Below are positions 5,281 through 35,202 of a stretch of DNA of 64,000 nt, in pieces. Source of the DNA: Deltaproteobacteria bacterium (GTDB taxonomy: Bacteria > Desulfobacterota > Binatia > HRBIN30 > JACQVA1); NCBI GenBank assembly GCA_016178705.1, contig JACOST010000030.1, positions 62,001 to 126,000 on the forward strand, given 5' to 3'. Below the pieces are notes generated by a model. That model ran no database searches, had not been told where the DNA came from, and saw nothing but the letters and a program-made list of their open reading frames with translations. Each line of letters starts with the position of its first letter. Position 1 is the stretch's first letter. Both the position numbers and the translations under genes were made by a program.

Positions 5281-7083
5281 GTGCCGATCATGCGACTTGC
5301 GACAAAGAGTACGGTCATCCTAATCACGGCGTATTTCCTGATGCTCGCCGCGCTCGCCCTATGGATGGAATACCAGTTGCGGGCGGTTGCGAGCGCGCTC
5401 ATGGAAGGCACCGCTCGTTTAGTTGGCAGCGAGATCGCGGTCGCGATGTCGGAGTCGGCGCGGGCGCAGCTGCTTCAGGGCGATCCTGCGAGTCGTTGGC
5501 GGCTGACGCAACTCATTGCGGATCTCAGTCAACGATCCGATGTAGTGGCGGCGATCACCGTGGCCGACGAGAACGGCCTGGTCGTGGTGAGCGATGACCT
5601 GGAGATCGGGCAGCAGCTGGCGCTCCCCGATTTCATCTTTCACGGGAACGCGGGGGCGCAGTTCATCAGCTCGGACGCCCCGTTGGGCGGGGGACAGTAC
5701 CACCTGTTCGTGCCGCTGCTGCGCGAGGATCACATCGTCGGTTACCTGCGTCTGTCGCTGAACAGCGTCCGCATGGCTGGTCTGTATCGCCGAGTCCGAC
5801 ACCAGATCGTAGTGGCGGCATTCGCGGGTTTAGTCTGCATTGGGGCGCTGGGCATGGTGGTTCACGCTCAGCTCTCGCGGCGCGGCGCCGCGTTGGCGCG
5901 AACCGTGGAGGCCACCGTGCGCGGGGAGGCGGTACCCGAAGCCACTCGCGGCGACGAGTTCTCGAAAGTGATCGAGGCCGCGGGCAAGCTGGGGCGGGAG
6001 ATGAGCGCAACCCGCGAGCGCAGCTCGCAAGCGCAGCGTCGAATCAACGTACTCGCCGACTTTATGGACGTTGGCGTGCTGCTGCTCGGGCCTGACACCG
6101 CCTTGGAGTTCGCCAACACGGTGGCGCGCCGCCTCTTGAGCGGGACGGCGAACGGTGATCTCGAGCCCCGCTGGGGAGACCTCAAGCCCGTGCTCGAAGA
6201 GGCGCTGGCCAAATGGCGCGCCGGGGCGATGCCGACCCACCCCGTCGATCTCGACGTCCCCACGACTGGCGGTTTGAAGCGCCTGCGTTTTGAGCTGCAT
6301 CGTGCCGGCGAAGACGATCGGGAGGAGTACCTGGTCTTGGTGAAGGATTGCGATCTGCTGGAGGCCTTTGAAACGGACCTGCGGTTGGCGACGCAGATGC
6401 GTGGGCTGGCGCGAATTTACGGAGCACTCGCCCACGAGCTGAAGGCGCCCCTGGGGGCGATGGCGCTCAACATCGAACTGCTCAACGACGCGCTCAAACT
6501 CGACGACGGAACCGAACGCGATCTTGCCGAACGGCGCCGGCGTTATGCGACGGTGCTGCAAAGCGAACTGGCCCGCTTGAATCGCTCGCTCATTGCCGTG
6601 CTGGATCAGACAACCTCGCTCGGCGAGGCCCAGGAGCGATTTGATTTGCGCGATTTGATTCGGGATGTCGAAGCGCTCTTGACACCGCAAGCGAAGCATC
6701 AACGAATTACACTCGCAGTCGAGCTGCCCGATACCGAGTTCGCTCTCACCGGTCACCGTGACCGCTTGAAGCAAGCGCTGCTCAACATCGCGACGAACGC
6801 TTTTGAGGCGATGCCGGAAGGCGGCCGGCTAGAAATGACTCTGGCTGCACAGAACGGCCGGGCCACCATCGCGGTGCGCGACACCGGGCCGGGCATCCAG
6901 CCGGAGGTTTTGGCGACCATGTACACCATGTACGTCACTACCAAGAGAGGGGGAACCGGGATCGGGCTCTATGTCGCGCGCTCGGTGGTAGAGGCGCACG
7001 GCGGCGAGATTCGCGTCGATAGTCAGCTCAGTCAGGGGACGTGCTTCTCCATTTGCCTACCGCTCTCAGCGGTGGAGGTGTAG
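5281..7083 (+). CDS. Membrane sensor histidine kinase
   Basis: A 600-residue inner-membrane sensor. A first transmembrane helix lies at residues 10-28, a periplasmic sensing region of about 140 residues follows, and a second helix lies near residues 177-197. HAMP-like and PAS-like segments come next. The phosphoacceptor is probably His 385 in AHELKAPL. The ATPase domain has the N-box NIATNAFEAM and the DTGPGI and GTGIGL glycine motifs. The periplasmic domain matches no family I can name. It is followed 7 bp later by a sigma-54-type response regulator, almost certainly its partner. The start is GTG; an ATG three codons downstream (5290) is an alternative. Confidence 0.92.
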   Translation: MPIMRLATKSTVILITAYFLMLAALALWMEYQLRAVASALMEGTARLVGSEIAVAMSESARAQLLQGDPASRWRLTQLIADLSQRSDVVAAITVADENGLVVVSDDLEIGQQLALPDFIFHGNAGAQFISSDAPLGGGQYHLFVPLLREDHIVGYLRLSLNSVRMAGLYRRVRHQIVVAAFAGLVCIGALGMVVHAQLSRRGAALARTVEATVRGEAVPEATRGDEFSKVIEAAGKLGREMSATRERSSQAQRRINVLADFMDVGVLLLGPDTALEFANTVARRLLSGTANGDLEPRWGDLKPVLEEALAKWRAGAMPTHPVDLDVPTTGGLKRLRFELHRAGEDDREEYLVLVKDCDLLEAFETDLRLATQMRGLARIYGALAHELKAPLGAMALNIELLNDALKLDDGTERDLAERRRRYATVLQSELARLNRSLIAVLDQTTSLGEAQERFDLRDLIRDVEALLTPQAKHQRITLAVELPDTEFALTGHRDRLKQALLNIATNAFEAMPEGGRLEMTLAAQNGRATIAVRDTGPGIQPEVLATMYTMYVTTKRGGTGIGLYVARSVVEAHGGEIRVDSQLSQGTCFSICLPLSAVEV

Positions 7084-7090
7084 GACGATC

Positions 7091-8431
7091 ATGCCACACG
7101 CCCTCGTAGTCGACGACGACGCAAATTTCCTGCTCCCGCTTGCCGAACTGGTGGAGCGAGAGGGGTTCACCACGAGCGTCGCCAGCTCGCTCAAGGATGC
7201 GCGGGCGCTGTTGCGTACCAAGCCGCCCGATCTGGTGCTGCTGGATCTGTTTCTGCCCGACGGCAGCGGCATCGACCTGCTGCAAGAAATCGATCCGAGC
7301 AGTACCACCGAAGTGATCCTCACGACCGCGCACGCCAGTGTCGACACCGCGGTCGAGGCGCTGCGCAAGGGCGCCTCCGACTACCTTACCAAACCGCTCG
7401 ACATGGCGCGCCTGCGAACCGTGCTCGGCGGCGTGCTGCGCGCTCACGCGCTGCGCGAAGAAGTGGGCACCTTGCGTGCCGAGCTCCGCAAGCTTGGCCA
7501 TTTTGGCTCGCTGGTCGGCGCATCGCTGCCGATGCAGAAAGTCTACGATCTCATCAGTCGCGTCGCGCCGACTGATGCTACCGTACTGGTGACCGGCGAG
7601 AGCGGCACCGGCAAGGAGTTGGTCGCCGAGACCCTGCACGCGCTCAGCCGGCGGCGCAAGGGACTCTTCTTGCCGGTCAATTGTGGCGCCATCTCACCGA
7701 CGTTGATCGAGAGCGAGCTCTTCGGCCACGAGCGGGGCAGCTTCACCGGCGCCGACCGGACCCACAAAGGATACTTCGAACGCGCCGCCGGCGGCACAGT
7801 GTTCCTCGACGAGATCACCGAGATGCCGATCGAGCTGCAGGTGAAGCTGTTGCGCGTGCTCGAATCCGGCGCGGTGATGCGACTGGGTGGCGAACGGCCG
7901 CTGCCCGTCGATGTCCGAGTGGTTGCCGCCACCAATCGCGTCGCTGAGGATGCAGTGGCGCAAGGGAAGCTCCGCGAAGATCTCCTCTACCGTCTCAAGG
8001 TGTTTCCGCTGCAACTACCGCCGCTGCGGGAGCGAGGCGATGACGTCGAGCTACTCGCGGAGAATTTTCTCGCCTTGCTGAATAAGGCGGAGGGGACAAC
8101 CAAAAAGTTCACGCGCGATGCGATGCAGCAGCTCCGTGCACACAGCTGGCCCGGTAACGTGCGCGAGCTGAAGAACTCGGTCCATCATATCTTCATCTTG
8201 GCCGACACGGACATTGGCGTAGACAGCCTGCCGCCGAACCTCAGCGGGGCGACTGAGCCGACCGCAGCGAGCCTGCACATCAAGGTTGGCCTGCCGTTGG
8301 CCGAGGTTGACCGGCGGCTCATCCTGGCGACACTGAACGAGTGTCAGGGTGACAAGCGGCGGGCCGCCGAGATGCTGGGCATCAGCTTGAAGACGCTCTA
8401 CAATCGACTCAATCTCTATCGGGCGCCGTAG
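7091..8431 (+). CDS. Sigma-54-dependent response regulator (NtrC family)
   Basis: A 446-residue cytoplasmic activator. The receiver domain (1-115) has acidic residues V-D-D-D, the phosphoacceptor Asp 52 in LLDLFLPDG, and Lys in LTKPLD. The AAA+ domain has Walker A GESGTGKE, a sigma-54 contact loop written GSFTGA instead of the usual GAFTGA, and Walker B GTVFLDEI. A Fis-type helix-turn-helix ends the protein (RRAAEMLGISLKTLYNRL). The ribosome-binding site overlaps the end of the kinase gene, so the two are cotranscribed. Targets are unknown; no clear -12/-24 promoter was seen nearby. G-S-F-T-G-A occurs in some functional activators. Confidence 0.95.
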   Translation: MPHALVVDDDANFLLPLAELVEREGFTTSVASSLKDARALLRTKPPDLVLLDLFLPDGSGIDLLQEIDPSSTTEVILTTAHASVDTAVEALRKGASDYLTKPLDMARLRTVLGGVLRAHALREEVGTLRAELRKLGHFGSLVGASLPMQKVYDLISRVAPTDATVLVTGESGTGKELVAETLHALSRRRKGLFLPVNCGAISPTLIESELFGHERGSFTGADRTHKGYFERAAGGTVFLDEITEMPIELQVKLLRVLESGAVMRLGGERPLPVDVRVVAATNRVAEDAVAQGKLREDLLYRLKVFPLQLPPLRERGDDVELLAENFLALLNKAEGTTKKFTRDAMQQLRAHSWPGNVRELKNSVHHIFILADTDIGVDSLPPNLSGATEPTAASLHIKVGLPLAEVDRRLILATLNECQGDKRRAAEMLGISLKTLYNRLNLYRAP

Positions 8432-27174: not shown

Positions 27175-29520
27175 ATGCAGCGCTACGTCGCGTTCATCGT
27201 TCGACATCGGCTCGCCGTTGTCATCGGGGTACTCCTGGTAACAGGGTTGCTCGCGGCCCAGCTTCGCAACGTTCACTTGGAGATCCGCCGGCGGGCCTCG
27301 CTGCCACAGGATCATCCGTATGTGAAGATCCAGAATCGGATCTCCGACCTCTTCGGCGGCGAAGCCATCGCGATCGTCGGCGTGATCGCCACTCGCGGCG
27401 ACATCTACACGCCCGCCACGCTCGGCAAGATCTACCGCATTACCCAGGGGCTCCACGATACGGCCGGTGTGATCGACGCCAATCTCGTCAGCATCGCTGC
27501 GCCGAACGTCAAGGCGGTGGTCGCCGGAGCCGATGGAATGGATATTCATCCGCTGATGGAGACTCCACCGACGAGCGCGGAGGACATCGCCGCGCTACGG
27601 GCGGCAGTGCGGCAGGATCGGCTGTTCCGCGGCAACCTGGTCTCGGCGGACGAAACCGCAACCGTGATCGTCGTCGAGTTCGATGATCGGCTGACCGACC
27701 CGATGATTGCCAAGCACATTGAGGACGTCGTCGGCCCCGAGCGCGATGATTCCGTGCGCATCGCCCTCGCTGGCGCTCCAATTTTGCGCGCAGCGCTGGT
27801 GCACTACACCGCGCTCATCGGCGTATTGTTTCCAATCGCGGTGGTGGTGATAGGACTGATTCACTACGAAGCCTTCCGCACGCTGCAAGCGATGTTTCTG
27901 CCGCTGGTCACCGCCCTCCTCAGCGTCGTTTGGTCGCTCGGGATCATGGGGCTGAGCGGGCAGCCGATGGACACTTGGAGCGCGGTCACACCCGTCGTGA
28001 TTTTGGCCGTGGCCGCCGGCCACGCCGTGCAGATCCTGAAGCGATACTACGAAGAATACGCACGACTCGGTGACAGCGAGCAGGCGGTGATCCAGTCGGT
28101 GACCGCGGTCGGCCCGGTGATGCTCACGGCGGGGCTGATCGCCTCGGCTGGGTTTGGCTCGCTCATGACCTTCGGAGTCACCAGCGTCCGCGTGTTCGGA
28201 TTGCTGCTGGCCTCCGGCATTTTGAGCGCCCTGATCATCGAGATGACGTTTACGCCCGCCTGCCGGTGCTTGTTGCCGGCGCCGAAGCGCCGCGAGACGC
28301 AACGCGAGAGCCAGTCCCGCTGGCTCGATCGCGCGCTCGCCGCACTCGCTGACATCGTCGTCGCTCGACCCCGCACCGTCTTGCTGAGCGCAGCCGTGAT
28401 CGTCGCGGTGTCGGTCGCCGGCGCGCTGGTCATCCAGACCGACAACAGTTTCCGCTTCTGGTTCTCGCCATCGACGCTAGTACGGCAGGACGACACGCTG
28501 CTGAACGAAAAGCTGCCCGGCACCGCCTCGGTCCGCATCCTGGTCGAAGGGGACCGGGAGAATGTGATGCAAGACCCGGCGGTGCTGCGGGCGATCAGCG
28601 ATCTCGAGCAATTCATGGAGGCCGACGGAACCGTCGGCGGCGTGACCTCGATTGCCGATCACATCAAGCGCATGCACCAGGCGATGAACAATGGCGACCC
28701 GGCGTTCTACGCCATCCCTGACAACGCGCGGCTCATCGCACAGTATCTCTTCTTGTACAGCTCGGCCGCCGGCCCCGAAGGGCTGAGCGGGTTCGTCGAC
28801 ACGAACTATCAGCGCACCGTCATCCGCGGCTTGAGCAAAACCGATGGCGCCGCGTTCTCTCGTGATCTCATCGGCCGTCTGCAACGCTTCGCCGGCGAAC
28901 GCTTCCAAGGCTTGCCGGTGACGGTCGAGATTGCCGGCGGGACCATCGGCGTGCAGACCGCCATGAACGACGTCGTCGTACACGAGAAGATCGTCAACAT
29001 GGTGCAAGTGAGCGCGATCATCTTCGTCCTTTCTGCGCTCGTGTTGCGTTCGTTCGTTGGCGGCGTATTTGTGCTGATGCCTCTGGCGATCGCCGTGGCG
29101 GTCAACCTCGGGGTGATGGGATGGGCGCACGTGTGGCTCGACATGACCTCGGCCGCCATCACGTCGATGGGCGTCAGCATCGGCGCCGACTTCGCGATCT
29201 ACCTCATTTTTCGTATTCGTGAAGAGTGGGCGACCACCGGCACCATCGAGGCAGCGGTCCGCGCCAGCTTGCACTCCTCCGGTAAAGCGATCTTCTTCGT
29301 ATCGTCGGCGGTCGCACTCGGTTACCTGGTGTTGCCGTTCGCCGGCTTCAGCATCTGGACCCGCCTCGGCATTCTGACCGCGATCATCGTATCCGTCAGC
29401 GCCTTGGCCACGCTGACAGTGATCCCCGCACTCGCGCTGGTATTGAAACCACGATTCCTCGAACGCGCCGCCATGCCTGCCGTGGCAACCGAGCCGCCGC
29501 AGCGCAGAGCGGCCGGCTGA
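27175..29520 (+). CDS. RND/MMPL superfamily transporter
   Basis: A 781-residue inner-membrane exporter with two similar halves. Each half has one helix, a periplasmic domain of about 170-200 residues, and five or six clustered helices (about residues 205-370 and 600-765). The intramembrane segments PVVILAVAAGHAVQILKRYYEE and ITSMGVSIGADFAIYLIFRIREE are the paired proton-relay regions typical of MMPL/HpnN-like proteins. Substrates of this group are lipids such as hopanoids or acyl-lipids, but none can be assigned here. It faces the ketosynthase gene tail to tail. A strong Shine-Dalgarno supports the start. Confidence 0.88.
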   Translation: MQRYVAFIVRHRLAVVIGVLLVTGLLAAQLRNVHLEIRRRASLPQDHPYVKIQNRISDLFGGEAIAIVGVIATRGDIYTPATLGKIYRITQGLHDTAGVIDANLVSIAAPNVKAVVAGADGMDIHPLMETPPTSAEDIAALRAAVRQDRLFRGNLVSADETATVIVVEFDDRLTDPMIAKHIEDVVGPERDDSVRIALAGAPILRAALVHYTALIGVLFPIAVVVIGLIHYEAFRTLQAMFLPLVTALLSVVWSLGIMGLSGQPMDTWSAVTPVVILAVAAGHAVQILKRYYEEYARLGDSEQAVIQSVTAVGPVMLTAGLIASAGFGSLMTFGVTSVRVFGLLLASGILSALIIEMTFTPACRCLLPAPKRRETQRESQSRWLDRALAALADIVVARPRTVLLSAAVIVAVSVAGALVIQTDNSFRFWFSPSTLVRQDDTLLNEKLPGTASVRILVEGDRENVMQDPAVLRAISDLEQFMEADGTVGGVTSIADHIKRMHQAMNNGDPAFYAIPDNARLIAQYLFLYSSAAGPEGLSGFVDTNYQRTVIRGLSKTDGAAFSRDLIGRLQRFAGERFQGLPVTVEIAGGTIGVQTAMNDVVVHEKIVNMVQVSAIIFVLSALVLRSFVGGVFVLMPLAIAVAVNLGVMGWAHVWLDMTSAAITSMGVSIGADFAIYLIFRIREEWATTGTIEAAVRASLHSSGKAIFFVSSAVALGYLVLPFAGFSIWTRLGILTAIIVSVSALATLTVIPALALVLKPRFLERAAMPAVATEPPQRRAAG

Positions 29521-29575: not shown

Positions 29576-30817
29576 CTACACGTTGCGCGGCTCGGACAAC
29601 ACCAGGTACGCGTTGACGCCGCCGTAGCCGTAGCTGGTCACCAGTGCGTGGCGGAGTCGCGCGGCACGGGCTTCGCCGGGGACGTAGTCGAGGTCGCACT
29701 CAGGATCGGCGATGTCGAGGTTGTTCGTCGGCGGAATGAGTTGGTGACGCAGGGCCAAGACAGCGGCAGCAGTCTGGAACGCGCCGGACGCACCGAACGG
29801 ATGGCCGAGTACGCCTTTGATCGAGCTGATTGGCAAACGCGCCGCGCACTCGCCAAAAGCGCGCTTGATGACGAGCGTCTCCTTGCGATCGAACGCCGGC
29901 GACGAGTTCGCATGCGCGCAGACGTAGTCGATGTCGGTCGCGCTCAACCTACTGCGGCTGAGCGCCCGATGCAGCGCCCGCGCTCCGCTGTCGCCCGACG
30001 GATCGAAGACGTACATCCCGCCCGCGTCGCACGACGCCGCGGCGCCGAGAATTTCGGCGTACACGGTCGCGCTTCGCCGCGTCGCCTGCTCCAGCGATTC
30101 GAGGACGAGTATGCAACTGCCTTCGCTCAGCACCATGCCGCTGTGCGATTGATCGAACGGGCGAGACGCGTGCTCGGGGTCATCGTTGATGGTCGACAAC
30201 TCCAGCGTACGGCTCATGCCGGCGATCACCATTGGGATCAGCGGGCTCTCCGCGCCGCCGGCAACGCACAGATCCAACTCACCGCTGGACACCAGCGCCG
30301 CCCCGTCGGCGATCGCTTGCAGACTGGCGGGGCAGCCGTTCGAGTGCGTGAGCTGCGGGCCCCTTGCCCCGACGGCGCGCGCGACTTCAACACCCGGCGA
30401 GTGGTTCGGCGTCGCATTGGCGATGAACGGATTCACGCGGCGCGCGCCGCGTTCCATCAAAATGCTGTGCTGCTGTTCCGCCTCGCGCCAGCCGCCGAGG
30501 GCGGTGCCCAGGCTGACCCCCATGAGATCCGCCTCGTAGTGCGCCGCCGGCAACCGCGCATCGCGCAGCGCGAGTTCCGCGGCGGCGAGAGCAAGCTGGC
30601 TGACATGTGTCGTGGTGCGCAGGGTGCGCGGATCGAGCAGGTCCTCGTAGCTCCGATCACGAACTTCGCCGCCGATTTGGCAGCCGTACGAGGTTGGGTC
30701 GAAGCGCGTGATTCGTCGGATACCGGAGCGCCGCTCGATGAGGGATTGCCAGAATGCCGCCACCCCGTTCCCGGTCGGCCCGAGCAACCCGATCCCTGTG
30801 ATCACGACACGCCGCAC
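29576..30817 (-). CDS. Beta-ketoacyl-ACP synthase (FabF/KS-like)
   Basis: A 413-residue thiolase-fold condensing enzyme that extends an acyl chain on an acyl carrier protein. The N-terminus RRVVITGIGLLGPTGNG is typical. The active-site Cys is in SNGCPASLQA, where most KAS II enzymes have T-A-C-A-S/T-G. The two catalytic His residues (CAHANSSPAFDRKET and GVLGHPFGASGA, with Lys in SSIKG) are present, so it should be active. A GTG at 30817 fits the family start and follows GGGAG; an ATG at 30853 is an alternative that overlaps the upstream gene. It is the last gene of an ACP, acyl-CoA dehydrogenase, ketosynthase operon and probably acts on that ACP. Confidence 0.9.
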   Translation of the reverse strand: MRRVVITGIGLLGPTGNGVAAFWQSLIERRSGIRRITRFDPTSYGCQIGGEVRDRSYEDLLDPRTLRTTTHVSQLALAAAELALRDARLPAAHYEADLMGVSLGTALGGWREAEQQHSILMERGARRVNPFIANATPNHSPGVEVARAVGARGPQLTHSNGCPASLQAIADGAALVSSGELDLCVAGGAESPLIPMVIAGMSRTLELSTINDDPEHASRPFDQSHSGMVLSEGSCILVLESLEQATRRSATVYAEILGAAASCDAGGMYVFDPSGDSGARALHRALSRSRLSATDIDYVCAHANSSPAFDRKETLVIKRAFGECAARLPISSIKGVLGHPFGASGAFQTAAAVLALRHQLIPPTNNLDIADPECDLDYVPGEARAARLRHALVTSYGYGGVNAYLVLSEPRNV

Positions 30818-30830
30818 GCACGCTCCCACA

Positions 30831-31973
30831 TCACAGCCGCAAATACCCTGCAACCAGATCCTTCATCAACTCGGACGGTCCGCCCCCGATACTCAGAACC
30901 CGCGCGTCGCGATACACGCGTGCGATCCAGTTGTCTTCGAGAAAACCAGAGCCTCCGTGGAGTTGCAGACAGCGCTCCACGACCCGCTGGACCATTTCGA
31001 AGACCTGAAACTTGATCATACAGATCTCTTTGGCTTCCACGTGTCCGTCGCGGTAGCTCTCGCAGACCGAGTGGACGAAGCGCTTCGCCATTTCAATCTC
31101 GGCAGCCATCTCGGCGATGCGATGACGCACAGTCTGAAGGCGAGAGAGGGGTTGGTCAAAGGCGACACGTTGCTGGAGATAGCCGATGGTGTCGTGCAAC
31201 ACGAGGTTAGCGAGGGCGACCGCACTGGCGCCACCCATGAGGCGTTCTTCGAGGATGTTTCGCGCGACGTAGAAGTACCCTAGGTTCGGCTTCCCCAGCG
31301 TCAGCCGCTTGGGCACGCGGCAATGATCGAATTCAAGCCACCCGGTCGGTGACGTGTGCATGCCGAGCTTGCGCAGCGTCTCCTTCACCCGGAATCCGGG
31401 TGTGTCAGTCGGCACGATCACCAGCGAGAGACTATTGATGGTGGCCTCGGGCTTGGTGCGGACGAGCATGATGACGAAGTCGGCGATCGGTCCGTTGGTG
31501 ATGTACTTCTTCTCCCCTGTTACGACCCAGAAATCGCCGTCATCTACGGCGGTGCATTGCACCGCACGCACGATGTCTGAACCGCCACTGGGTTCGCTCG
31601 ATGCGACGGCACCGACTTTTTCGCCACGGATCGCCGGGGCGAGGAATTCTTGTTTCTGCTCCTCGGTACCGAGTGTCGCCAGCAACGGCGGAAAGATGTT
31701 AGTCTGCGCAAGGATGCTGAGTGTGACCCCCATCATTTTTGATCGCGGCAGCTCCTCGGCCAACACGATGCTGTAGCCAAAGTCCAACTCTTGGCCACCG
31801 TACTTCCGCGCGTGAGTGAGGCCGAGCAACCCCTCGTGCGCCAGGTCGGAAAACAGGCTTCGCGGAAACGAGGCTTGCTGCTCCCACTCGTTCGCATGCG
31901 GAGCGAGGCGGTCCTCAACGAAGCCACGGACGCGCCTGCGGAATACCTCGTGCTCGGCGGAGAAGAGGCTCAT
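30831..31973 (-). CDS. Acyl-CoA (or acyl-ACP) dehydrogenase
   Basis: A 380-residue FAD dehydrogenase with EPSGGSDI, VTGEKKYITNGPIADF and the C-terminal QLHGGSGFLEDNWIARVYRDARVLSIGGG. The ending I-G-G-G replaces the usual I-Y-G/A-G-T. Its ATG overlaps the stop of the ACP gene (ATGA), so the two are translationally coupled. That suggests it could act on an acyl chain carried by this ACP, as in several secondary-metabolite pathways, to make an unsaturated chain. A role in plain beta-oxidation cannot be excluded. The order of mechanism is inferred, not seen. Confidence 0.9.
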   Translation of the reverse strand: MSLFSAEHEVFRRRVRGFVEDRLAPHANEWEQQASFPRSLFSDLAHEGLLGLTHARKYGGQELDFGYSIVLAEELPRSKMMGVTLSILAQTNIFPPLLATLGTEEQKQEFLAPAIRGEKVGAVASSEPSGGSDIVRAVQCTAVDDGDFWVVTGEKKYITNGPIADFVIMLVRTKPEATINSLSLVIVPTDTPGFRVKETLRKLGMHTSPTGWLEFDHCRVPKRLTLGKPNLGYFYVARNILEERLMGGASAVALANLVLHDTIGYLQQRVAFDQPLSRLQTVRHRIAEMAAEIEMAKRFVHSVCESYRDGHVEAKEICMIKFQVFEMVQRVVERCLQLHGGSGFLEDNWIARVYRDARVLSIGGGPSELMKDLVAGYLRL

Positions 31974-32248
31974 TGGTTCTCGCCCAGCGCGCAGCGATGG
32001 ACGTAGTCCACAATGGCACCGAACTGGTTGAGTTCCACTACCTGGATGGGGTCGATCTGTATATCGTACGCTTCTTCGATCGCGACTTGAAGTTCAACAA
32101 ACGCCACCGAGTGCATTTGAAGCCCGTCGTCCACCGTTGCTTCCTCGGTGATCCGTTCCAGCGGCACCTTGGCGATCTCGCAGACAAGGTCGGCAAGCTG
32201 CCTCTTCACTTCGTCCCGGCTCAAAACTGAGACTGCTTGATTCCTCAT
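31970..32248 (-). CDS. Acyl carrier protein with variant attachment motif
   Basis: A 92-residue carrier protein that would hold acyl groups on a phosphopantetheine arm. The helical layout fits ACP: EVKRQLADLVCEIAKVP, then the attachment helix. The modified Ser sits in LQMHSVAFVELQVAIEE, where most ACPs have D-S-L; here the Asp is His. The following VELQVAIEEAYDIQI matches ACP helix II-III. GGAGTTGAG precedes the ATG at 32248. It is the first gene of the operon and diverges, 108 bp apart, from the FeeM-like synthase. That is the FeeL/FeeM arrangement of partners, although the genes here are on opposite strands. Confidence 0.85.
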   Translation of the reverse strand: MRNQAVSVLSRDEVKRQLADLVCEIAKVPLERITEEATVDDGLQMHSVAFVELQVAIEEAYDIQIDPIQVVELNQFGAIVDYVHRCALGENQ

Positions 32249-32356
32249 CCACTCAACTCCACGCCGCAATTTCCAGCCCACAATCCGTTGCGGTTGCCCC
32301 GCGTCCGCTTGACTCGGCGGCCGGCGTTTGGGGAAGATACGGACGCGGTGGCGACT
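32249..32356. promoter_or_regulatory. Divergent control region of the acyl-signal gene cluster
   Basis: This 108-bp gap separates the ACP and acyltransferase start codons. It contains an inverted repeat CCGCAA (32264-32269) and TTGCGG (32288-32293), and a -35-like TTGACT (32309-32314) facing the acyltransferase with a poor -10 region 17-18 bp later. It must hold the promoters of both transcripts; an operator is possible. Confidence 0.4.
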
Positions 32357-33046
32357 ATGTCAAGCGACGGTAGAATTCCCGGAGGCCAGCCTAGGGACAC
32401 TTTTCATGGGCCGACTGGTGCGCCTGAGAGTCGAAACCGAGTTTGGCGGGTCTTACTTGGAAGCAAAGCCTCCCTGTCCGTGATCAGCGTGGGAGACCAG
32501 AACGATCGTGTTGATGCCATACGAGTAAGACGACAGGTCTATTGCACCGAACTTGGGTATCAAGGGGAGGAGGATGCCGTCGACCAGCGAGCTCACCTTT
32601 GTGTCGTAAGGACCAACGATGGCGAAGCCGTAGCTTCCCTGAGGATTGTGGGACCAGCGCAACGGCCGTTCGAGATCGAAACCTTCCGCTCGTTGGATGA
32701 GATCCTCCCGCTGGAGCACCGAGCCGCTGAGATCAGCCGCTTCTGCGCCCTGCCCGCATTTCGCAGCATCTCAAGTCTCGTGCATCTGGCCGCATTCAAG
32801 TTCGCATTCGGCCTGGCTGACTGCGAAGGGTTCTCTCACTTCGTAATATGGTCAAAGCCAATCCTTGCACCCATCTATCGCTATCTGCTCTTTGAGACGA
32901 TTAGAGACGTACAGTTCGAACACCCTGGGCTCGGGAACGAACGCCACGCTGTCCTCGTCCTCGATCTCCGTGACATCGTCACCAGATATCGGCAGACGCG
33001 CCCTGCACTGTGGAGTCTCCTCCCGCAGAGTGAGGAGCGGTCGTGA
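32357..33046 (+). CDS. FeeM-like N-acyl amino acid synthase / autoinducer-synthase-fold GNAT
   Basis: A 229-residue GNAT-fold acyltransferase. The N-terminal IRVRRQVYCTELGYQ, the Asp in EDAVDQRAHLCVV, the strand EAVASLRIVGP, and the signature AAEISRFCALPAFR match the FeeM group and the related PEP-CTERM/exosortase-associated acyltransferases, which share a fold with LuxI. Known members use acyl-ACP to acylate an amine such as tyrosine. The late HPGLGNERHAVLVLDL fits this group too. The ATG at 32357 is preferred, but the ribosome-binding site is weak. The stop overlaps the sensor-kinase GTG (GTGA), so synthase and sensor are made together. An orphan ACP lies 108 bp away. Substrates are unknown. 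Confidence 0.78.
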   Translation: MSSDGRIPGGQPRDTFHGPTGAPESRNRVWRVLLGSKASLSVISVGDQNDRVDAIRVRRQVYCTELGYQGEEDAVDQRAHLCVVRTNDGEAVASLRIVGPAQRPFEIETFRSLDEILPLEHRAAEISRFCALPAFRSISSLVHLAAFKFAFGLADCEGFSHFVIWSKPILAPIYRYLLFETIRDVQFEHPGLGNERHAVLVLDLRDIVTRYRQTRPALWSLLPQSEERS

Positions 33047-35202
33047 ACTACCAGTGGAGCATCCCGCTGCTCGCTGGACTAGCCAACGCTGCGCTCGGCA
33101 CATTCGTACTATTCAGAAATCCCCGTCATCCTCTGAACATCGCATACGCGTTCCTGGCCGGCTCGCTCGTTTTGTGGAATCTGAACATTTTCGGATTCTA
33201 TTTTTTTCGTGACGCGGCGACAGCATTCCAGTGGGCTAGGGCCTTTAGGGTCGGCACGATCATGTTGCCGACCGCAATAGCTGTGTTCGCCTACGTCTTC
33301 GCTGAGCGGCATGAGCGATGGAGTCGGTGGGTAGTAGGTCTATCGGTAGGACTGTCAGTCTTCTTGGTGGTCACAAACGCTTTTGATTTGGTCGTCGCGG
33401 AGGTCCGGTGGTTTGGTTGGGGGTACTACTCGATCGGGACACGTCTCTACAATCTTCTTGTCCTCAACTTCGTGCTTTCGGTCGCCTACACGGTAGGCAT
33501 CCTTTTGCGGGAGGTCAACTCAAGCGGTTCGCCGCGTAAGCGAGATCAAGCGCGCCTTTGGCTGCTGGCCGCGGCAGTGGCGGTACCACTTGGGCTGACA
33601 AACCTTCTCCCAGCATACGGCCTTCACGTCTTCCCCCTTGGCAATCTAGCGAATGTGGCCTACGTCGGCATTGTCGCGTACGCCATCGTTCGTCACCGCC
33701 TGATGGACATCGACATCGTCATCACCAAGGGTATGGCGTATGCGGCGACTGCGCTCGCGGTCATCGCGCCAACGTTCGGTCTGCTCTTGGTGATGCAGCG
33801 GGCGTCGTTCGGCCAGATCCATCCCGACTTCTCGTTCGCACTGCTGGCGCTATTGATCGGGGTCGGCGTGCTGTTTCCAACGCTGCGTCGGCGCGCGGAG
33901 TCAGGGATCGAACGGTCGTTCTTCAGGCAGAAGCATGAATACCGCGTTGCGCTGACCGCATTCACGCGTTCGATCGTTCGCATCCTCGATCGCGACAAGC
34001 TCCTCCACGAGCTGGCCGAGACCCTGACGGTCACACTCCAGCTCGATCGGCTCGCTGTTTGTCTGTTCGACGAAGGTGAGCATGCGTACACGGTGCGCCA
34101 TACGAGCGGGATCGCACCCGCCACGGGAGAGTTCGGCGACGAGGACGAGTTGGTCGTCATGCTGCGTCGGCGCGAAGATGTGGTGATGCGAGACGAGTTG
34201 GAAGCCACTGCCGACTCGATCGATCGCATCGCCGCAGAAACCTGCGCCCGCAACGGTTGGGAGGTTTGCATCCCGCTCACCGCGAGCGACCGGCTCATCG
34301 GCTTCATCGCCCTTGGCCGTAAGCGCAATCTCGAGGCCTTTTACGCCGAAGATCTCCAACTCCTCAGCACGCTCGCGGCCGAAGCATCGATTGCGCTCGA
34401 GAACGCCCGCCTCTACGAAGAGCTGAAGAAGTCGCGCGACATCATCGAGCGCACCGGGCGGCTGTCGGCCCTCGGCACCCTGGCGGCCGGCATCGCGCAC
34501 GAGATTCGCAATCCGCTGGTCTCGATCCAAACGTTCTTCCAACTCGCACCGCAGCGGCGACACGATCCGGAATTTTTCACCAGCTTTCTCAGCCTCACCG
34601 CCGGCGAGGTCGATCGCATCGGTGACCTGATCACCGAACTGCTGTCGTTCGCCCGCTCACCCTCCCATCGGGTCGAGGATGTCGACATCAACGACCTCAT
34701 CGAGCGCACCACGCTGTTGCTCGATCCCGAAGCCCGCAAGAGCCGGGTCAAACTCGCCCGCCTGCTCGCGACCGACCTGCCCGTCATCCGCGCTGACGGT
34801 GATCAGCTCAAGCAAGTGGTCATCAACCTCGTCCTCAACGCAATCCAGGCCACGCCTGCCGGCGGCACGGTCACTGTGCTGACGCGGCGCCACCGCCATC
34901 AGGGCAATCCGCTCTGCCAGATCGAAGTGCGCGACACCGGCGTCGGCATTCCGCCGAAGATGATCGAAGACATCTTCAATCCGTTCTTCACCACCAAAGA
35001 CAAGGGCACTGGCCTCGGCCTCTCCATCGCCCACCAGATCGCCACCGAGCACGGCGGCTTCATCACCGTCACCAGCGAGATGGACCACGGCAGTTCGTTC
35101 TACGTCAATCTCCCGCTCACGAGTGCGATCGACTCGCCCACGATCAGCGACGAGCCGGAGGCGGCACTGCCGCTGCGCTATGGCCGCATGGCCAAGCTCT
35201 AG
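33043..35202 (+). CDS. 7TM-GAF sensor histidine kinase coupled to the acyltransferase
   Basis: A 719-residue membrane sensor. Residues 1-225 contain seven hydrophobic helices resembling the 7TM domain found at the N-terminus of some histidine kinases; a further pair of helices lies near 230-285. A GAF domain follows (about 310-455). The phosphoacceptor is His 486 in GIAHEIRNPL, and the ATPase has NLVLNAIQATP, DTGVGIP and GTGLGLS. No receiver domain or response regulator is adjacent. It starts with GTG overlapping the synthase stop, so it probably senses the product or a related lipid. PrsK-like PEP-CTERM kinases have a similar layout. Base composition of the first half is lower in GC than the second. 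Confidence 0.88.
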   Translation: MNYQWSIPLLAGLANAALGTFVLFRNPRHPLNIAYAFLAGSLVLWNLNIFGFYFFRDAATAFQWARAFRVGTIMLPTAIAVFAYVFAERHERWSRWVVGLSVGLSVFLVVTNAFDLVVAEVRWFGWGYYSIGTRLYNLLVLNFVLSVAYTVGILLREVNSSGSPRKRDQARLWLLAAAVAVPLGLTNLLPAYGLHVFPLGNLANVAYVGIVAYAIVRHRLMDIDIVITKGMAYAATALAVIAPTFGLLLVMQRASFGQIHPDFSFALLALLIGVGVLFPTLRRRAESGIERSFFRQKHEYRVALTAFTRSIVRILDRDKLLHELAETLTVTLQLDRLAVCLFDEGEHAYTVRHTSGIAPATGEFGDEDELVVMLRRREDVVMRDELEATADSIDRIAAETCARNGWEVCIPLTASDRLIGFIALGRKRNLEAFYAEDLQLLSTLAAEASIALENARLYEELKKSRDIIERTGRLSALGTLAAGIAHEIRNPLVSIQTFFQLAPQRRHDPEFFTSFLSLTAGEVDRIGDLITELLSFARSPSHRVEDVDINDLIERTTLLLDPEARKSRVKLARLLATDLPVIRADGDQLKQVVINLVLNAIQATPAGGTVTVLTRRHRHQGNPLCQIEVRDTGVGIPPKMIEDIFNPFFTTKDKGTGLGLSIAHQIATEHGGFITVTSEMDHGSSFYVNLPLTSAIDSPTISDEPEAALPLRYGRMAKL

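Follow-up and report, generated by a model that had tools for sequence, protein, structure and literature searches.

In the LuxM/LuxN and CqsA/CqsS systems of Vibrio, the synthase gene is arranged beside the gene of a kinase, and both synthases and sensors belong to families other than those described here. In the parts of the literature covered, CqsS is presented as a membrane kinase receptor. The locus analyzed in this study lies in a window of 64,000 nucleotides (the whole stretch of DNA that was analyzed) and centers on a putative acyltransferase of 229 aa and a 7TM-GAF sensor histidine kinase of 719 aa, hereafter AT and HK. It resembles the Vibrio systems in that a candidate small-molecule synthase adjoins a membrane histidine kinase, whereas it differs from them in having genes for an acyl carrier protein (ACP), a ketosynthase (KS), and a dehydrogenase alongside, and no adjoining regulator.

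Other systems share part of this design. Like the FeeM-type N-acyl amino acid synthases (PF21926), AT scores above the family cut-off, contains Glu125, and has an ACP gene nearby, but it is paired with a sensor kinase and its relatives from the same order lack the Glu. The profile of the AT family matches LuxI-type AHL synthases in the PDB (E 1.3e-8); in contrast with that type, the window's AT matches no LuxI-family model and its neighbor is a kinase instead of LuxR. The ingredients of PrsK/PrsR and the exosortase-associated acyltransferase are the same (acyltransferase, membrane kinase, and sigma-54 regulator), although AT and HK fall below those family cut-offs, HK belongs to a separate group, and exosortases are unlinked to the pair in the window's genome. 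Finally, ComQXPA of Bacillus also couples a polymorphic synthesis gene to a kinase receptor, according to the portions available of two reports (PMC4408185, PMC4008528), but its signal is a peptide, and the receptor divergence of HK is not exceptional against controls. Side-by-side genes for a synthase and a receptor kinase are known as an arrangement, but no description of a pair of the AT-HK type was found in the literature searched, which covered few subscription journals, and the function assigned here to this combination of families is putative.

Architecture of the locus

The features of the locus, with their coordinates in the window, are the following:

27175..29520, + strand: MMPL / HAE3-type transporter, candidate exporter (PF03176 above cut-off, TIGR00921 below; adjoins the cassette KS in 5 of 10 order genomes)
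29576..30853, - strand: FabF-like KS (domain matches; Cys174, His314, His351)
30831..31973, - strand: acyl-CoA / acyl-ACP dehydrogenase (ACAD; Acyl-CoA_dh N, M, and C domains)
31970..32281, - strand: ACP, divergent from AT (PF00550; Ser kept in 9 of 9 cassette ACPs aligned)
32357..33046, + strand: AT, putative acyl-signal synthase of the FeeM / Acetyltransf_5 type (PF21926, Pfam FeeM, 34.4 bits against a cut-off of 27; PF13444, 38.3 bits against 22.4; present in 10 of the 15 order genomes, counting the window's)
32729..32731, + strand: codon of Glu125, in the AEISRF motif of AT (aligned counterpart of the AHL synthase Glu and, by family, of the Glu that is catalytic in N-acyl amino acid synthases)
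33033..33037, + strand: AGGAG, Shine-Dalgarno-like, for HK, within the AT gene (sequence)
33043..33046, + strand: GTGA stop/start overlap of AT and HK (sequence)
33043..35202, + strand: HK, 719 aa (HisKA_7TM, GAF, HisKA, and HATPase_c, each above its cut-off)
33067..33711, + strand: N-terminal 7TM region of HK, HisKA_7TM, residues 9-223 (PF16927, 37.4 bits; hydropathy)
33988..34404, + strand: GAF domain of HK, residues 316-454 (domain match)
34471..34659, + strand: HisKA domain of HK, residues 477-539, with His486 at 34498-34500 (domain match)
34795..35121, + strand: HATPase_c domain of HK, residues 585-693 (domain match)

Most of what the earlier note had read from the pair was confirmed: AT is FeeM-like by its Pfam score and carries the A-E-I-S-R-F motif at residues 124-129, the GAF match of HK exceeds its cut-off, and His486 lies within AHEIRNP. 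The seven helices attributed to HK were recovered as seven hydrophobic segments inside the PF16927 region, but a simple hydropathy scan gave nine in all before the GAF domain. In alignments, homology of AT begins at about residue 30-40, and 32357 is a putative start. The GTGA overlap, also as described, suggests that both genes form an operon, four-base overlaps being a common junction type in operons. Nevertheless, the production of AT and HK in fixed ratio that had been deduced from it does not follow, because HK carries its own AGGAG upstream of the overlap. Third-position GC is lower in AT and the 7TM part (window 32357-33717) than in the remainder of HK (0.64 vs 0.81, Fisher p 2e-9).

Cys174, His314, and His351 of KS are presumably the equivalents of the FabF triad. 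No response regulator adjoins HK in the window. Matches to a sigma-54 promoter near AT and ACP were no better than those of shuffled sequences in the window and in six of eight other stretches; better matches, located within the ACP gene or where it starts, were found in G007 and G001, where 0 and 3 of 100 shuffles, respectively, were as good. Elsewhere in the window, at positions 5281-8428, an NtrC-like response regulator follows a 600-aa frame whose start is hydrophobic. The window's genome (G000) holds eight HisKA_7TM matches in all, seven of which fit the Pfam model much better than the window's HK does, and four matches are clustered in about 10 kb (C6:77528-86980). The same genome encodes an Acetyltransf_5 protein (OlsB-like) followed by a PlsC-type acyltransferase (L146 9724-11396), perhaps an ornithine-lipid pair.

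Distribution of the pair within the order and beyond

Fifteen genomes of the order, including G000, were compared; they are kin, and their counts are not independent. AT was found in 10 of them, always with an HK of one clade directly downstream, and this clade, searched with an E-value limit of 1e-85 and seven scored candidates in each genome, was found in all 10 genomes with AT and in none of the five without it. The spacing between AT and HK is -4 in the window and -4, +5, +8, +9, +16, and +16 in other genomes, and -7 in G009 with the first ATG. A contig end cuts AT in G010, and in G001 the AT frame and the N-terminal half of HK are broken, with the kinase half open (L018 7497-10214). An AT-HK fusion in G001, where a 905-aa frame exists, was considered and rejected, as the AT and HK N-terminal frames are broken, by decay or sequencing error.

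A cassette-type KS (at least 54% identity to the window's) was detected in 11 of the 15 genomes, G005 (at a contig start) being the one beyond the 10 with AT, and the four genomes without KS also lack AT; in G006, KS lies about 43 kb away from AT. Within the stretches examined, the ACP gene was found near AT, or with KS where AT is on a separate contig, in nine of the 10 AT genomes (not in G006), and ACAD in seven (not in G014, G003, or G006). An MMPL gene was located near KS in five (G000, G001, G006, G010, and G013) and was not found near the cassette in the stretches examined of the other five.

Outside the order, an HK of the window's clade was found in seven genomes of family f6, from the same class. 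AT adjoins HK, divergently, in five of these (G105, G459, G460, G462, and G463); in G461 both genes lie at contig ends, and in G458 AT is elsewhere and HK is near an MMPL gene and a regulator. A sigma-54 response regulator of one close family was found no more than about 5 kb from HK in all seven genomes, and an MMPL gene lies beside AT or one gene off in G459, G460, G461, G462, and G463. Counts of AT outside the order are lower bounds: the class profile search missed the ATs beside HK in G460, G463, and G105, which were found from the HK side. In family f115, a kinase from another clade, a regulator of the f6 regulator family, and AT stand in a row in two of the three genomes with AT, and in the third AT lies beside an MMPL gene and no such kinase was found. 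In the stretches examined of f6 and f115, no counterpart of the window's ACP, KS, or ACAD was found next to AT. Therefore, the adjacency of AT and HK, whose search in other genomes was set beforehand as a check, is not unique to the window's genome, and because it is conserved through the order and recurs in a different arrangement in f6, the pairing is more than chance.

Related 7TM kinases also occur in other settings. At none of nine loci read from families f8, f9, f113, and f114 (two of which, L249 and L252, hold little upstream DNA) was AT found beside the kinase, which in these loci lies beside or near other sigma-54-type regulators; the 79 named loci listed in a search with HK, a set without its near relatives, contain no AT. 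A FabF-like KS gene is directly upstream of a related 7TM kinase without AT at L242 (6921-8282) and L243 (6555-7820). Among nine phylum-wide matches scanned, eight, from other classes, pass the TIGR03694 cut-off, and one (G105) is OlsB-like, with a score under the cut-off of that family. MMPL-type genes also adjoin two of the eight TIGR03694 proteins (L135 and L143), so the MMPL link is not special to the cassette.

A candidate for the response regulator that the earlier note proposed to search for by co-occurrence was found near HK in 7 of 7 f6 genomes, but the window's HK has no neighboring one. The best match to the f6 regulator in the window's genome was rejected as a partner of HK, since it adjoins another kinase and G013, G007, and G008 hold nothing of similar score. 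In G010, the AT-HK pair is immediately followed by a 7TM-GAF-sigma-54 activator fusion (L167 5052-7442), which indirectly backs a sigma-54 output.

Glu125 and the divergence of AT and HK

A profile of 15 ATs matched AHL synthases in the PDB (3p2f, E 1.3e-8; 6wns, 1.3e-6; 6wn0, 4e-4), with GNAT acetyltransferases nearly as good (3e-7) and FeeM (2g0b) matched weakly (0.24); no LuxI-family model was listed for the window's AT at E up to 0.1. Glu125 belongs to an E-x-S/T-R-F motif that aligns with AHL synthases. Mutation showed that a Glu of this family is needed in Nas354, as stated in the part of PMC4897644 that was available, and judging from the motif Glu125 would be its equivalent. In an alignment of 15 rows, Glu125 was kept in the window's AT and in the seven class relatives, but each of the seven order relatives (G001 and G010, which could not be judged, are not among them) has another residue there (Q, Y, L, Q, Q, L, Q), with D73, D76, R96, Y174, and F179 invariant throughout. 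Among these seven order relatives, one passes the FeeM cut-off and two that of PF13444, and for the three from genus g6 no Pfam match appeared at E 0.1. In the AT tree, the window's AT stands apart and the seven other order ATs group together at 99/96. By its sequence, the window's AT looks like a competent enzyme, whereas the chemistry of its order relatives may have been changed or lost; the loss of Glu in the latter counts against a uniform synthase function. A single-sequence structure model of AT reached a mean pLDDT of 39, too low for a fold search.

Between three species of genus g6, ATs share 30-36% identity, against 64-75% for ACP, 75-86% for ACAD, and 80-88% for KS, AT being the outlier in divergence. 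For HK, identity in these species is 52-54% in the 7TM region, 71-74% in GAF, and 75-84% in the kinase domains; a step in HK identity lies near residue 160. The divergence of the HK N-terminus does not exceed the spread seen in 13 further HK ortholog pairs of G007/G008, several of which have identities as low or lower; these controls cover loci for 30 of 55 HisKA matches, with frames taken stop to stop, whose first blocks may include untranslated letters. A further control HK pair, from G000/G014, shows 36-70% identity in the N-terminal part. The sensor-region divergence of HK is ordinary, and receptor co-divergence as proof of an AT-HK link was dropped in view of the similar N-terminal drops in the 13 control pairs.

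Interpretation and significance

With a confidence somewhat short of even, we read the locus as a synthase-receptor signaling cassette for an acyl signal. Starting from the observed genes, domains, linkage, and co-occurrence, this reading predicts how catalysis, product, export, ligand recognition, and regulator would fit together. The divergent ACP, KS, and ACAD would supply a particular acyl-ACP, and AT, which is FeeM/LuxI-like, would transfer the acyl chain to an amine (an amino acid or similar), probably via Glu125. The MMPL protein may export the amphiphilic product or flip it out of the inner membrane, and the 7TM region of HK would bind it from the membrane or the periplasm, altering phosphorylation at His486. 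A sigma-54 response regulator would then receive the signal, its gene lying outside this locus in the genome of the window but near AT-HK in f6.

The logic of a synthase next to its receptor, put forward in the earlier note, gains from the conserved adjacency, the co-occurrence in the order, the recurrence in f6 with a sigma-54 regulator, and the ACP, KS, and dehydrogenase neighbors, but is weakened by the Glu loss in order relatives; on this logic, the kinase would sense the synthase product. Also counted against the cassette were the lack of a regulator beside the window's HK and of a sigma-54 promoter above chance, the 7TM kinases without AT in nine of nine loci, the missing MMPL in 5 of 10 genomes, the ordinary divergence of HK, and the pLDDT of 39.

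The main rival, which we regard as a real possibility, is a biosynthetic cluster for a lipid or secondary metabolite (an aminolipid or an N-acyl amino acid surfactant), in which HK would be a pathway regulator sensing an envelope or other cue and the product would not be its ligand. ACP, KS, ACAD, and MMPL genes are typical of such a cluster, AT shares PF13444 with the OlsB-like protein encoded beside a PlsC-type acyltransferase in the window's genome, and related 7TM kinases exist without AT. Nevertheless, no genome of the order was seen to have the HK clade and lack AT, and f6 and f115 keep AT, kinase, and regulator together with no window-like ACP, KS, or ACAD found beside AT in the stretches examined.

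It is improbable, in our view, that AT is in most of the order a former enzyme, retained as a partner that binds acyl-ACP and informs HK of the fatty-acid status. The replacement of the catalytic Glu in all seven order relatives, the five residues invariant across the 15 rows, and the ACP gene near AT or KS in nine of 10 genomes speak for such a role, but the window's AT and the seven class relatives aligned keep the Glu.

The earlier note also saw a possible link to exosortase biology, and Craig et al. (2011), as cited in the parts available of PMC4897644 and PMC7293339, connected synthases with PEP-CTERM. TIGR03694 is indeed the best NCBIfam match of AT, and HK matches PrsK (TIGR02916) at 186 bits; three loci from other classes of the phylum have a TIGR03694 protein next to or close to a sigma-54 regulator, exosortase-like genes exist in the window's genome, and the contig that carries AT in G001 also has an exosortase match, 34 kb away from it. 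However, both scores are well below the cut-offs (AT, 40.2 of 111.95 bits; HK, 185.8 of 300 bits), and a quick HK tree places nine order and two f6 HKs in a single group (SH-aLRT 100), separate from 28 PrsK-type HKs, 27 of which exceed the family cut-off. Every one of the 15 order genomes, also the five without AT, has exosortase matches, mostly partial, whereas G459 and G462 have AT, HK, and regulator but no exosortase match, and in G000 the exosortase-like genes are on other contigs, not near AT-HK. On scores, tree, position, and distribution, the assignment of AT-HK to a PEP-CTERM/exosortase branch with PrsK/PrsR was rejected as very improbable. That AT and HK are chance operon neighbors without a functional link is scarcely credible: four-base overlaps are common, but the linkage occurs in two arrangements and the presence of both genes matches across the order.

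Under the signaling cassette reading, the product of AT may be a fatty-acid-based small molecule, and the pairing would resemble, by analogy, known bacterial communication systems built from different protein families. A bolder proposal, which we consider less likely than not, is a new acyl-signal quorum sensing class, in which a 7TM-GAF kinase has as its ligand the product of a FeeM/LuxI-like synthase served by its own ACP, KS, and dehydrogenase. In an extension of this idea, PrsK-type kinases could respond to an N-acyl amino acid that the acyltransferases of their own systems produce. In the parts of the sources covered, N-acyl amino acids and their synthases are described as having a role that is not clear (PMC4897644) and the stimulus of PrsK as obscure (PMC1569441). 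A conserved locus, apart from exosortase genes, joins an enzyme of the N-acyl amino acid synthase type with a PrsK-like kinase, and both questions could be tested with two genes. To our knowledge, the families of AT and HK have no known use as a synthase/receptor-kinase pair; if true, the signaling cassette would add such a pair from families new to this use.
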